DNA from: Pseudomonadota bacterium
GTDB taxonomy: Bacteria > Desulfobacterota > Desulfovibrionia > Desulfovibrionales > Desulfovibrionaceae
Length of the DNA: 64,000 bases
Reading direction: 5' to 3'
Assembly (NCBI GenBank): GCA_018816865.1
Contig: JAHIUW010000025.1
Location: forward strand, 62,001 to 126,000
The position numbers and the translations under genes were made by a program. Below are positions 47,943 through 51,371 of this stretch, piece by piece. Under the pieces are notes generated by a model, which had not been told where the DNA came from, ran no database searches, and worked only from the letters and a program-made list of their open reading frames with translations. The first letter of the stretch is position 1; every line of letters starts with the position of its first letter.

Positions 47943-49322
47943 ATGACCGAACCAAGGACACCCCACCCCATAGGTCAGAACCCGCAATCTCCGAGATTGC
48001 AGCGGATACTCGACAGCGTCGCCTTGGGCATCTTTGCCGTGGACAAGAACTGGAACATCACCTTCTTCAATCGTGAGGCTGAGCGCATCACCGGATATGG
48101 ACGCGAGGAAGCACTGGGCAAGAAATGCTGGAACATCCTGCCCAATGAGCGCTGCCACAAACGCTGCCACATGCGCCAGGCCATGCGCACGGGCAGAAGC
48201 GTGATCAAGGCCAGGGTGCACGTCCTGAACAGAAGCCACCGGAGGATTCCCCTGGAAATCACGGCAGCGCTGCTCCATGACGATGCCGGGGAGATGATGG
48301 GGGGAGTGGAATCGTTCATGGACCTCACAGCTCGTCAGTCACTGGAAGATTTCGTCAGACAATCCTACCAATATCACAGCATGATCGGCCGCGACAAAGG
48401 CATGCGCCACCTATTCAGCATCGTGAAGACGGTGGCCCCCACCGAGGCCTCCCTGCTCCTGCTGGGCGAAACCGGCACCGGCAAGGATCTGCTGGCCAGG
48501 GTCGTGCACAACGCGAGTTCCAGGGCAGACAAGCCGTATATCAAGGTCAACTGCGCGGCTATCCCCCACAACCTCTTGGAATCGGAACTTTTCGGGTACC
48601 GCAAGGGCGCGTTCACAGACGCCCGGCGGGACAAGCCAGGCCTCTTCGCCCAGGCCCAGGGAGGCACCATCTTCCTGGACGAGATCGCGGATATCCCCAA
48701 GGAACTACAGGCCAAACTTTTTCAGGTGCTCGATGAAAGCGCGTATTACCCCCTGGGCGCAACCTCGCCGGAGACGGTCGACGTGCGCTTCATTGCGGCC
48801 ACCAACCTCAACTTGGCGGCCCTGATGGAGCGAGGTGAATTTCGTGCCGACCTCTATTTTCGCCTGCGCGTCGTGGAATTGGTCCTCCCCCCTTTGCGCG
48901 ACCGCCCCTCGGACATTCCCCTGCTCATCGAACATTTCCTGCATGAATTCGCGGCGCAGCAGAGTAAGCACATCACAGGTATGGAGCCCGAGGCCATGCA
49001 CCTGCTGCTCAATTACGACTACCCTGGAAATGTACGGGAACTCCGCCACATCGTGGAGCACGGCGTCATCCTGTCCTGCGGGGATTTCGTTGAACTCGAA
49101 GACCTGCCCCAAAGCCTGATCGACAGAGCAAACTCTCACGCCCAACCACAGGGCCAGCCCCTGTTGAGCGAAGTCCCCACATCCCTGGACCTGAAAGGTC
49201 GCGAACGCATCATGCTCCTGGAGGCCCTTCAGGAACACGGTTGGCGCATAGGCGAGACCGCCAGCGCCCTGGGCATTGACCGCACCACCCTGTGGCGCAG
49301 GAAAAAGAAGCTGGGTCTTTAG
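47943..49322 (+). CDS. PAS-AAA-Fis sigma-54-dependent activator with Cys-rich PAS
   Basis: A 459-residue enhancer-binding protein. The PAS domain (about 17-130) contains KKCWNILPNERCHKRCHMRQAM, a Cys cluster (three Cys) seen in redox-type PAS of sulfate reducers. The AAA+ domain (about 145-375) has Walker A GETGTGKDLLAR, the loop GAFTDA (222-227) where most activators have GAFTGA, Walker B GTIFLDEIADIPKELQ and the arginine finger region. The last ~45 residues are a Fis HTH (EALQEHGWRIGETASALGIDRTTLWRRKKKLG). It is 339 bases upstream of the HdrD-like selenoprotein, whose spacer has sigma-54 and palindrome features. The GAFTDA change may alter how it contacts sigma-54. Confidence 0.92.
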   Translation: MTEPRTPHPIGQNPQSPRLQRILDSVALGIFAVDKNWNITFFNREAERITGYGREEALGKKCWNILPNERCHKRCHMRQAMRTGRSVIKARVHVLNRSHRRIPLEITAALLHDDAGEMMGGVESFMDLTARQSLEDFVRQSYQYHSMIGRDKGMRHLFSIVKTVAPTEASLLLLGETGTGKDLLARVVHNASSRADKPYIKVNCAAIPHNLLESELFGYRKGAFTDARRDKPGLFAQAQGGTIFLDEIADIPKELQAKLFQVLDESAYYPLGATSPETVDVRFIAATNLNLAALMERGEFRADLYFRLRVVELVLPPLRDRPSDIPLLIEHFLHEFAAQQSKHITGMEPEAMHLLLNYDYPGNVRELRHIVEHGVILSCGDFVELEDLPQSLIDRANSHAQPQGQPLLSEVPTSLDLKGRERIMLLEALQEHGWRIGETASALGIDRTTLWRRKKKLGL

Positions 49323-49470: not shown

Positions 49471-49496
49471 TGCAATATATGTTGCATTTGTGCAAC
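49471..49496. promoter_or_regulatory. Proximal TTGCA-type repeats (probable activator site)
   Basis: TGCAA (49471-49475), GTTGCA (49481-49486) and TGCAAC (49491-49496) lie together, the last two as an inverted repeat with a 4-nt spacer. They sit about 90-110 bases upstream of the GG-N10-GC promoter, a usual distance for the enhancer site of a sigma-54 activator. The activator is encoded just upstream. Confidence 0.5.
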
Positions 49497-49581
49497 AAAA
49501 ATTGTGCTGGTGCAGCGCCTCTTTCAGTTTTTTGGACCTAACACTTTACAATGACAGACATTGCCACCGGGCGCCCCCAAC

Positions 49582-49596
49582 GGCCCCCCTTTTGCT
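49582..49596 (+). promoter_or_regulatory. Candidate sigma-54 promoter of the selenoprotein operon
   Basis: GG (49582-49583) and GC (49594-49595) are separated by exactly 10 bases, with a TTTTGCT -12 element. The -24 element (CGGCCC) departs from TGGCAC, so the match is partial. The start codon lies 66 bases downstream of the -12, so a short leader with the GGAGGAGGG ribosome site would follow. Confidence 0.5.
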
Positions 49597-49661: not shown

Positions 49662-50960
49662 ATGAACGAGACATCCACAACATTGATCCAACCACTTGAG
49701 CCTATGTTTCTGAAAAAGGCCGCAAGCCTGCTGCCCGAAGGTGGAAACCTCAACCTATGCCTGACTTGCGGGGCCTGTGTTGCCGGGTGCCCGGCCTCGG
49801 GGCTGGAGGACATGGACCCGCGCAAATTCCTGCGCCTGGCCCTTTTTGGACAATACGAGGAATTGACCACCACCCCCTGGGTCTGGCAATGCACCATGTG
49901 TCGGCGTTGCGTCTACGCCTGCCCCATGCATGTGGATATTCCGAGTCTGGTCTACCTATGCCGCCAGACATGGTCCAGGGAGACCCGGCCCAAGGGGATT
50001 CTCGGCTCCTGCGAGCAGGCCCTGAACACACCTGGAAACAGCGCCATGGGCGCATCCAGCGATGATTTCGCCTTCGTCGTCCAGGACGTTGTCGAAGAGG
50101 TCCGCGAAAATCAGCCTGGCCAGGAAAACCTTGAAGCCCCCATGGACAAGCAAGGTGCCTATTATTTCCTGAACCAGAACTCACGCGAACCAGTGACCGA
50201 GCCCGACGAGATGGTCCCACTGTGGAAGATTCTGAACATGGTGGGTGCGGATTGGACATACAGCACCAAGGGCTGGGCCGCAGAAAACTACTGCATGTTC
50301 CTGGCCGATGACGAAGCCTGGGAAAAAGTGGTCCGCAACAAGGCCAAGGCGGTGGAGGACCTGGGGTGTAAGGTCTGGCTCAACACCGAATGAGGCCACG
50401 AATTCTATGCGGTCCGGGCCGGACTGCAAAAGTTCAATATTGAGTACAGCTTCAAGCTGGAAAGCATCATCTCCCTCTACGCCAAGTGGATTCGCGAGGG
50501 CAAACTGCCCGTCAATTCCGACTGGAACAAGGAACTCGGCATCAAGTTCACCGTTCAAGACCCCTGCCAACTGGTGCGCAAGTCCCTGGGCGATCCTGTG
50601 GCCGATGATTTGCGCTTTGTGGTCAAATCGGTGGTCGGCTATGACAACTTCATCGACATGTGGCCCAACAAATCCAACAACTACTGTTGCGGGGGAGGGG
50701 GAGGATTCCTCCAATCCGGTTATGCCGAAGCCAGACGGGCCTATGGCAGGGTCAAACTTGATCAGATTCTGCAGACAGGGGCCGACTATTGCATCGCCCC
50801 CTGCCACAACTGCCATTCGCAGATTCATGACTTGAGCGAATTCTACGAAGCAGGATTCCCGGTGGTGCATCTCTGGACCCTGATCTGTCTTTCCCTGGGC
50901 ATCCTCGGAGAGAACGAACGGGAATACCTGGGGGACGACCTGCGAAACGTCGGACTCTAA
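49662..50960 (+). CDS. HdrD-like iron-sulfur protein with an in-frame TGA read as selenocysteine
   Basis: A 432-residue protein if TGA 50391-50393 encodes selenocysteine (residue 244); ORF finders stop at 243 residues. The N-terminus has two [4Fe-4S] ferredoxin motifs: C33-x2-C36-x2-C39-x3-C43 and C77-x2-C80-x2-C83-x3-C87. The C-terminal CCG domain has C302 (DPC), C342-C343 (CCGGGGG) and C381-x2-C384, the canonical C-x39-CC-x37-C-x2-C spacing. The TGA falls in NTE-U-GHE, where homologs have the E-C-G-H cysteine before the CCG domain. Such proteins carry out heterodisulfide or electron-transfer chemistry. The frame is clean on both sides and a hairpin follows the TGA. It is not a pseudogene in my judgement. 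The GGGAGGAGGG ribosome site supports the start. Confidence 0.8.
50394..50427 (+). promoter_or_regulatory. Candidate bacterial SECIS hairpin
   Basis: After the TGA, GCGGTCCG (50409-50416) pairs with CGGACTGC (50420-50427) through 8 pairs, one of them a G-U wobble. The apical loop begins with G (GGC). The loop starts 23 nt after the TGA, inside the 16-37 nt window used for bacterial SECIS elements. SelB binding to this hairpin would direct selenocysteine insertion. Confidence 0.65.
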
Positions 50961-50966
50961 GATGCA

Positions 50967-51371
50967 ATGAGGCAAGACACCCCGCATGAGGATCGTCAAC
51001 GGCGTGCGCAGAAGCTCCAGACAGACATGGGACGCTATTTGGATGAAATGGCCAACCACATCGGCAAAGCAGCTGGGGATGAACAGGACGAAGCGCTGCT
51101 TACGACGCACTTCTTGGGCCAGAACTACAGCCTGGCCCTGAGCTGCCAAGCCCGGGGGCTGCGCCGCTTTGTGGTCCGCATGCAGGAGCCGTGGCCGCAA
51201 ACCCTGGTCATTGGCCGATTGTTGCCCAACGGCAGAGCCCGGGTCTTTGACCACGGTGTGGCGTTGTTCTCAGACTATCTGTTGCACGAGGGCCTGTTCG
51301 AGGAGTTTTGTCGCGACCTCAAGGAGTCCCTGGCCCTGTGTGCCTGTGGCGACCCGAAAATGATTGATTGA
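50967..51371 (+). CDS. Unrecognised protein downstream of the HdrD-like selenoprotein
   Basis: A 134-residue cytoplasmic protein starting 7 bases after the selenoprotein stop, likely translated by coupling. It has a helical N-terminus (QKLQTDMGRYLDEMANHIGKAAGDEQDEALLTTHF), a central region with SCQARGLRRFVVRMQEPWPQTLVIGRLLPNGRARVFDHGVALFSDYLLHEG, and a short Cys-containing end (LALCACGDPKMID). No family is recognised. Its position, close coupling and shared terminator suggest that it acts with the iron-sulfur protein, perhaps as a partner or maturation factor. Confidence 0.55.
   Translation: MRQDTPHEDRQRRAQKLQTDMGRYLDEMANHIGKAAGDEQDEALLTTHFLGQNYSLALSCQARGLRRFVVRMQEPWPQTLVIGRLLPNGRARVFDHGVALFSDYLLHEGLFEEFCRDLKESLALCACGDPKMID

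Follow-up and report, generated by a model that had tools for sequence, protein, structure and literature searches.

The TGA codon at positions 50391-50393 of the window (the whole stretch of 64,000 nucleotides that was analysed) is almost certainly decoded as selenocysteine (Sec). Taken as a whole, the data are very probably best explained by a gene, in a sulfate-reducing bacterium, for an HdrD-like iron-sulfur redox protein into which SelB inserts Sec under the guidance of a hairpin. The gene and its recoded codon were assigned as follows.

49662-50960, + strand: gene for an HdrD-like (Fe-S)-binding selenoprotein of 432 residues including Sec244, predicted from the frame, the domains and 80 homologous loci
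50391-50393, + strand: in-frame TGA, predicted to be read as Sec244 in the motif E-U-G-H, from TGA in relatives and Cys in TGA-free copies

The frame begins with ATG at 49662, ends with TAA at 50958-50960 and, as the first-pass annotation of this DNA had stated, is clean except for a single TGA. This is codon 244 (context NTE-U-GHEFYAV), and 188 residues follow it, among them the cysteines that had been claimed for the continuing frame (C302, C342-C343 and C381-x2-C384). The first-pass annotation had also predicted that ordinary annotation would yield a truncated protein and a separate fragment, and mechanical ORF calling gave exactly that split, into 49662-50393 and 50574-50960. At least the 80 relatives examined would be divided in the same way, so that an electron-transfer subunit found repeatedly in sulfate reducers goes unnoticed.

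The split is what would be seen if the TGA were a true stop, leaving a 243-residue HdrC-like protein and a downstream pseudogene fragment or separate gene. The downstream ORF would begin at residue 305, after C302, and would therefore be without one of the five cysteines of its CCG domain. Relatives were collected from GTDB contigs and the best 80 of 331 were kept, with identities of 68-82%. Among these 80 loci, codon 244 is TGA in all and TAA or TAG in none, and the aligned frame passes through the TGA in every one, so that no kept homologue ends at residue 243, an arrangement that the first-pass annotation had named as speaking against Sec. In eight relatives, pN was 0.05-0.17 and pS 0.52-0.84 both before the TGA (over 100 codons) and after it (over 180), with 3 of the 16 values too saturated for a ratio. 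The low pN downstream indicates that purifying selection acts on this part at the protein level, and the five CCG cysteines C302, C342, C343, C381 and C384 are invariant in 30 aligned sequences. A true stop was rejected on the conservation of the frame and the selection downstream of the TGA, and is considered highly improbable.

Sequencing error or recent nonsense mutation can also put a lone in-frame stop into an individual assembly. This explanation was refuted by the conservation of the TGA, which occupies the same codon in a 72% identical paralogue from the same genome (L010) as well as in the 80 other loci, and its probability is vanishingly small. The triplet U-G-H was present in 83/83 TGA rows. 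The paralogue lies on genome contig C18 (C18:24048-25307), a contig without an hdrA match. The tree sister of L010 is a Desulfomicrobiaceae sequence (L069), and the two Sec copies in the genome therefore do not seem to stem from a recent duplication.

The residue that replaces Sec was studied in more distant copies. It had been claimed that homologues carry Cys in the E-x-G-H motif; this held for the distant copies and not for the nearest homologues, all 80 of which carry TGA. In a tally of the site at E <= 1e-30, with the own-genome matches L013-L020 outside it, the only Cys versions among the 80 loci and the tallied own-genome paralogues were remote paralogues (28-31% identical) and one tandem copy in locus L028 (62%). 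A census taken across 395 genomes in the phylum (E <= 1e-90) returned at least 53 genomes with a match and at least 74 rows, at least 55 with one TGA and at least 19 without; these are lower bounds because no more than four candidates were scored per genome. The position of the TGA was verified in 5 of the 55 TGA rows (the window, L010, L132, L133 and L134). Among the TGA-free copies, 17 of 19 were fetched (G001 and G077 were left out), and all 17, at 50-65% identity, encode Cys at the site, as TGC in 16 and TGT in one. Trees were quick ones with SH-aLRT support only. In the one tree of 53 chosen rows, the Cys forms were scattered at several points within the Sec clade, and six Sec/Cys changes were needed, three of them forced by well-supported branches.

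Two loci are recorded here as separate observations. L073 (9120-10259) contains a 35% identical relative with TGA at the same site and three of seven hairpin pairs in this register; it groups with CGGG-type Cys paralogues on the tree, on a long branch that makes its placement unsure. In L028 (3625-6290), a Cys version, 62% identical to the copy in the window, and a Sec version, 74% identical to it, stand in tandem behind a single sigma-54 activator.

At least 11 of the 53 genomes with a match in the census carry both a TGA and a TGA-free copy, and the pairing of Sec and Cys forms within one genome offers a natural test of what selenium adds. It would also be in keeping with regulated readthrough, in which selenium shortage would give a 243-residue HdrC-like product while other organisms would switch to a Cys paralogue; the N-terminal part does contain both cubane cluster motifs. 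In the window genome, however, there are two TGA copies, and the closest relative lacking a TGA reaches only 30% identity; such regulation is judged improbable here.

Next, the genome (3.64 Mb in 42 contigs) was searched for the Sec machinery. The first-pass annotation had proposed a check for selA, selB, selC and selD, with absence of selB or selC as evidence against Sec. All four are in the genome, each with one match over its family cut-off: tRNA-Sec (selC) at 76 bits, SelB at 392, SelA at 606 and SelD at 345. Note that in 14 control genomes the searches for tRNA-Sec, selB and selD gave weak matches in every case, with matches over the cut-off in five, two and two genomes, respectively. The selD match (L104; C21:41386-42303) itself has one in-frame TGA inside it, and the selenophosphate synthetase is therefore probably a selenoprotein too.

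The DNA immediately downstream of the TGA folds into the following element.

50408-50428, + strand: SECIS-like hairpin of 9 bp in the lowest-energy fold, with a loop starting with G, predicted from folding and conservation

The stem and the G-starting loop described by the first-pass annotation are real. The hairpin begins 14 nt after the TGA and not 23 nt after it; the latter figure matches the distance to the loop of an 8-bp version, while the fold of lowest energy (-16.7 kcal/mol) forms a stem of 9 bp with a GGC loop, and a possible lower stem would extend it to 50400-50435. Shuffled sequences folded as well in 1/200 cases for a 50-nt stretch, 14/200 for 60 nt and 11/200 for 64 nt. Among 80 distinct sequences, the first loop column was G in all, the seven inner pairs were standard in 74 to 80, and the two outermost pairs were poorly conserved (26/80 and 51/80). 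Compensatory changes were present at several inner pairs, such as columns 21/33, where G-C is replaced by T-A and by A-T. Two hairpin codons are near-fixed, CGG and GGA each in 79/82, and the lower stem is mostly invariant, hence it holds little covariation information. The paired fraction over nine pairs was 0.87 against 0.10-0.43 in slid controls; double-sided base changes, at 17 against up to 24 in a slid control (+4), were not decisive. A search of Rfam with the hairpin gave no match.

The Cys copies served as a natural control. Because L042 and L134 represent a single region, the 86 Sec rows reduce to 85 distinct places, and all seven inner pairs were present in 72 of these against none of 24 Cys copies. 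Of the other Sec places, 12 had six of the seven pairs and the remote L073 copy had three; the best of the 24 Cys copies were two that reached six. Where Cys copies have lost the hairpin, the loss goes in part with amino-acid substitutions at that place, so the data show coupling and not its direction. That retention of the hairpin is coupled to the TGA is strongly supported by this comparison. The same data bear on a selenium-free alternative, suppression that inserts Trp or Cys at the TGA: the hairpin goes with the TGA, the Sec system is complete, and the alternative residue was Cys and never Trp in the copies examined. Such decoding was rejected on the evidence of machinery, Cys replacement and hairpin together, and is extremely improbable. 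Several marks of a bacterial selenoprotein were found, namely a conserved UGA with Cys homologues, a hairpin with a G loop, and selA, selB, selC and selD.

The encoded protein was explored at the level of domains and fold, and two regions were assigned.

49749-49934, + strand: HdrC-like domain with sites for two cubane [4Fe-4S] clusters (Pfam Fer4_8 at residues 30-91)
50550-50825, + strand: second CCG domain with the five-Cys motif for a noncubane cluster (Pfam CCG at residues 297-388)

The cubane ligands C33, C36, C39, C43, C77, C80, C83 and C87 are, like the five CCG cysteines, invariant in the 30 aligned sequences. As expected of HdrD, two [4Fe-4S] motifs precede a CCG domain pair of HdrB type. 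HdrD is also defined by two complete five-Cys CCG motifs, and here the second motif is complete while the first keeps residue 244 alone; Pfam detects the second CCG domain only. The label 'HdrD-like' is therefore fair by domains and fold, although the first CCG domain is degenerate. An AlphaFold (AF2) model built from the 30-row alignment had a pLDDT of 87.9. Its best fold match was EtfD of Mycobacterium smegmatis (9ojn; Z 26.5, 373 residues, rmsd 2.9), at 16% identity. HdrB chains gave Z 21-22, and about as good as HdrB were LutA (9a6l, Z 21.2) and a Helicobacter pylori protein (3kwl, Z 20.8). A sequence search for a solved HmcF-like chain found none.

The position of Sec was mapped on EtfD. 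The first CCG domain was placed via this protein alone, because the HdrB profile aligned the second CCG domain only, and weakly (against the C-terminal CCG of HdrB, probability 35%, E 4e-4). In the EtfD profile alignment, which has a two-residue gap nearby, U244 falls on Cys581 and H246 on His583, and the counterparts of Cys503, Cys538 and Cys584 are A166, T199 and E247. The 30-row alignment shows no substitution at residue 244 (with U taken as C), A166 or T199; at H246, 26 rows have His and four, all of them remote Cys paralogues, have Gly. According to the accessible text on the EtfD structure, Cys581 together with Cys503, Cys538 and Cys584 holds a linear [3Fe-4S] cluster, D1, and the last ligand of the noncubane cluster D2 is His583 (PMC13083937). 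With A166, T199 and E247 at the ligand positions, a D1-type cluster could not be held in the EtfD way, and only residue 244 and the histidine remain in the first CCG domain.

One interpretation of these data is that Sec244 is a ligand, either to the noncubane cluster or to a remnant of D1, and tunes a potential instead of catalysing. The part played by its counterpart Cys581 in EtfD argues for this and the replacement of the other three ligands argues against it, and a ligand role is considered rather unlikely. The preferred reading places Sec244 next to the noncubane cluster, where it would be free to act on a substrate, and Sec is probably a redox-active residue beside that cluster. A catalytic role for it there is put forward at a little less than an even chance. 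Sec appears to lie where the HdrD/DsrK-type fold has its reaction centre. The accessible portions of the literature searched yielded no explanation for the role of the conserved E-C-G-H cysteine.

The surroundings of the gene were examined for regulation, and the following features were noted.

47943-49322, + strand: regulator of PAS / sigma-54 activator / Fis type by its domains, probable activator of the Sec gene
49480-49497, no strand assigned: palindrome TGTTGCA-N4-TGCAACA, candidate site for the upstream activator, from similar palindromes elsewhere
49582-49595, + strand: sigma-54-type -24/-12-like site, GG-N10-GC, 80 bases upstream of the ATG, from comparison of loci
50967-51371, + strand: ORF of 134 residues, of no known family in family searches

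Copies of the activator lie upstream of the gene in L024 (64% identical), L132-L134 (50-51%) and L028 (43%). The pairing of activator and gene recurs in L024, L042/L134, L132 and L133, and in L028 the activator stands before the Cys-Sec tandem. With L042 and L134 again counted as one region, the seven activator-adjacent rows represent six distinct loci. A GG-N10-GC site lies between activator and gene in five of these six, against 4 of the 77 other loci with enough upstream DNA; in L028 there is no such site upstream of either the Sec copy or the preceding Cys copy. Palindromes of the TTGC/GCAA type lie between activator and gene in four of the six. On this comparison, the upstream sigma-54 activator probably controls the Sec gene in this lineage.

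The 134-residue ORF begins six bases after the Sec gene and matched no family in Pfam or NCBIfam. Its only relatives among the loci examined are in L024 (44%), where the relative is downstream of the Sec gene, and in L028 (31%), where it lies between the activator and the Cys copy.

Neighbouring genes in the 80 relatives' loci were identified by tblastn (E <= 1e-12); the queries were reference proteins taken from these loci and recognized by the domains CCG (HdrB), Fer4_9 (HdrC), Usp, MTHFR (MetF), PF12225 (MetV), FlpD (MvhD), and flavin plus Fer4 (HdrA). The protein with PF12225, the MTHFR C-terminal domain, is named MetV here, and the neighbours' NCBIfam matches to HdrA2, VhuD and HdrB were below cut-off. 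Within the locus DNA examined there was an hdrA-like gene in 38 loci, mvhD-like in 29, metV plus metF-like in 19, usp in nine and hdrB plus hdrC-like in eight; none of the reference genes was present in 32, some of which are short contigs. Three orders recurred in eight loci each: hdrA-hdrC-hdrB-usp-[Sec gene], near relatives (L021-L023, L025 and L026) included; hdrA-mvhD-[Sec gene]-metV-metF; and metV-metF-[Sec gene]. A usp gene lies between the hdrACB-like genes and the Sec gene in L021, L022, L023, L025, L026, L030, L044 and L059.

The recurrent hdrA, mvhD and metV-metF orders suggest that the Sec protein gives an HdrBC-like service to HdrA complexes. A comparable arrangement, the MetFV-HdrABC-MvhD set of Moorella, is described in the part of PMC6085437 that was available. 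In the window genome, the two contigs that carry the Sec genes (C40 and C18) were searched for hdrA and gave no match; an hdrACB set is on contig C38.

A working model can be proposed on these predictions. SelB would insert Sec at the UGA, guided by the SECIS hairpin just downstream, to give a soluble HdrD-like redox protein in which HdrC and HdrB are fused. The two cubane clusters would pass electrons to the noncubane [4Fe-4S] cluster of the second CCG domain. Close beside that cluster would lie Sec244, with His246 as its neighbour, in the first CCG domain, whose own cluster would have been lost. Its selenolate could then attack a disulfide-type substrate, forming a selenenyl-sulfide that the noncubane cluster would reduce, or the reaction could run in reverse. 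HdrA-type complexes are the likely electron partners, and the adjacent sigma-54 activator probably controls the gene in this lineage. The combined proposal, a site of selenium and noncubane cluster for disulfide-type chemistry in a protein whose first CCG domain gave up its cluster, fed by HdrA and switched by sigma-54 in some Desulfovibrionaceae, is a tentative one, possible but not quite probable.

Selenoproteins of this kind are already in print. In the accessible text of a 2006 study, 'Fe-S oxidoreductase (GlpC)' is among the selenoprotein families; it has five members, one of them in D. vulgaris, and in some species shares an operon with hdrA and frhD (PMC1794560). A TGA cluster was named Fe-S oxidoreductase in 2007, in the available part of PMC1914089, and the portion seen of a 2026 review gives Fe-S oxidoreductase (GlpC) as predicted with high confidence, with the motif UGH (PMC13188914). 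A Sec-containing HdrD4 is reported from Desulfobacterium autotrophicum HRM2 in the accessible section of PMC2702500. The window selenoprotein therefore belongs to a known kind. It fits the GlpC family (PTHR43551) by motif, host group and description, sharing the UGH motif, deltaproteobacterial hosts and the Fe-S oxidoreductase annotation, the match being one of description. Some GlpC members stand in hdrA-frhD operons, whereas the window copy stands beside a sigma-54 activator; an operon of hdrA with frhD/mvhD, which does not define the family, is absent around the window gene, in line with the lack of hdrA on C40 and C18. HdrD4, also compared by description, is likewise a soluble HdrD-type protein (HdrC plus HdrB) with Sec, but from a different organism and gene context.

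HmcF, TmcB and DsrK are subunits of membrane complexes. They are the nearest NCBIfam models, far under their cut-offs (169/750, 160/735 and 124/400 bits, respectively), and an HmcF-type protein of the same genome (L012, which scores over the HmcF cut-off) has the E-C-G-H site in common with the window protein, as well as the CCG motif at the C terminus. Methanogen HdrB/HdrC have the same fold, a second CCG domain with all five Cys and the HdrC-like N terminus; the window protein differs in being one fused chain, in having Sec for Cys, and in a first CCG domain that keeps only residue 244 among the cluster ligands. EtfD of M. smegmatis is membrane-bound, and its linear [3Fe-4S] ligands other than at residue 244 are missing in the window protein. 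The sigma-54 pairing, the EtfD-based placement of Sec and the chemistry of the site were not found in the accessible portions of the openly licensed literature searched, PMC4641369 included. Thus, the selenoprotein family has been known since 2006, and what is added here is the placement of Sec by way of EtfD and the pairing with a sigma-54 activator.
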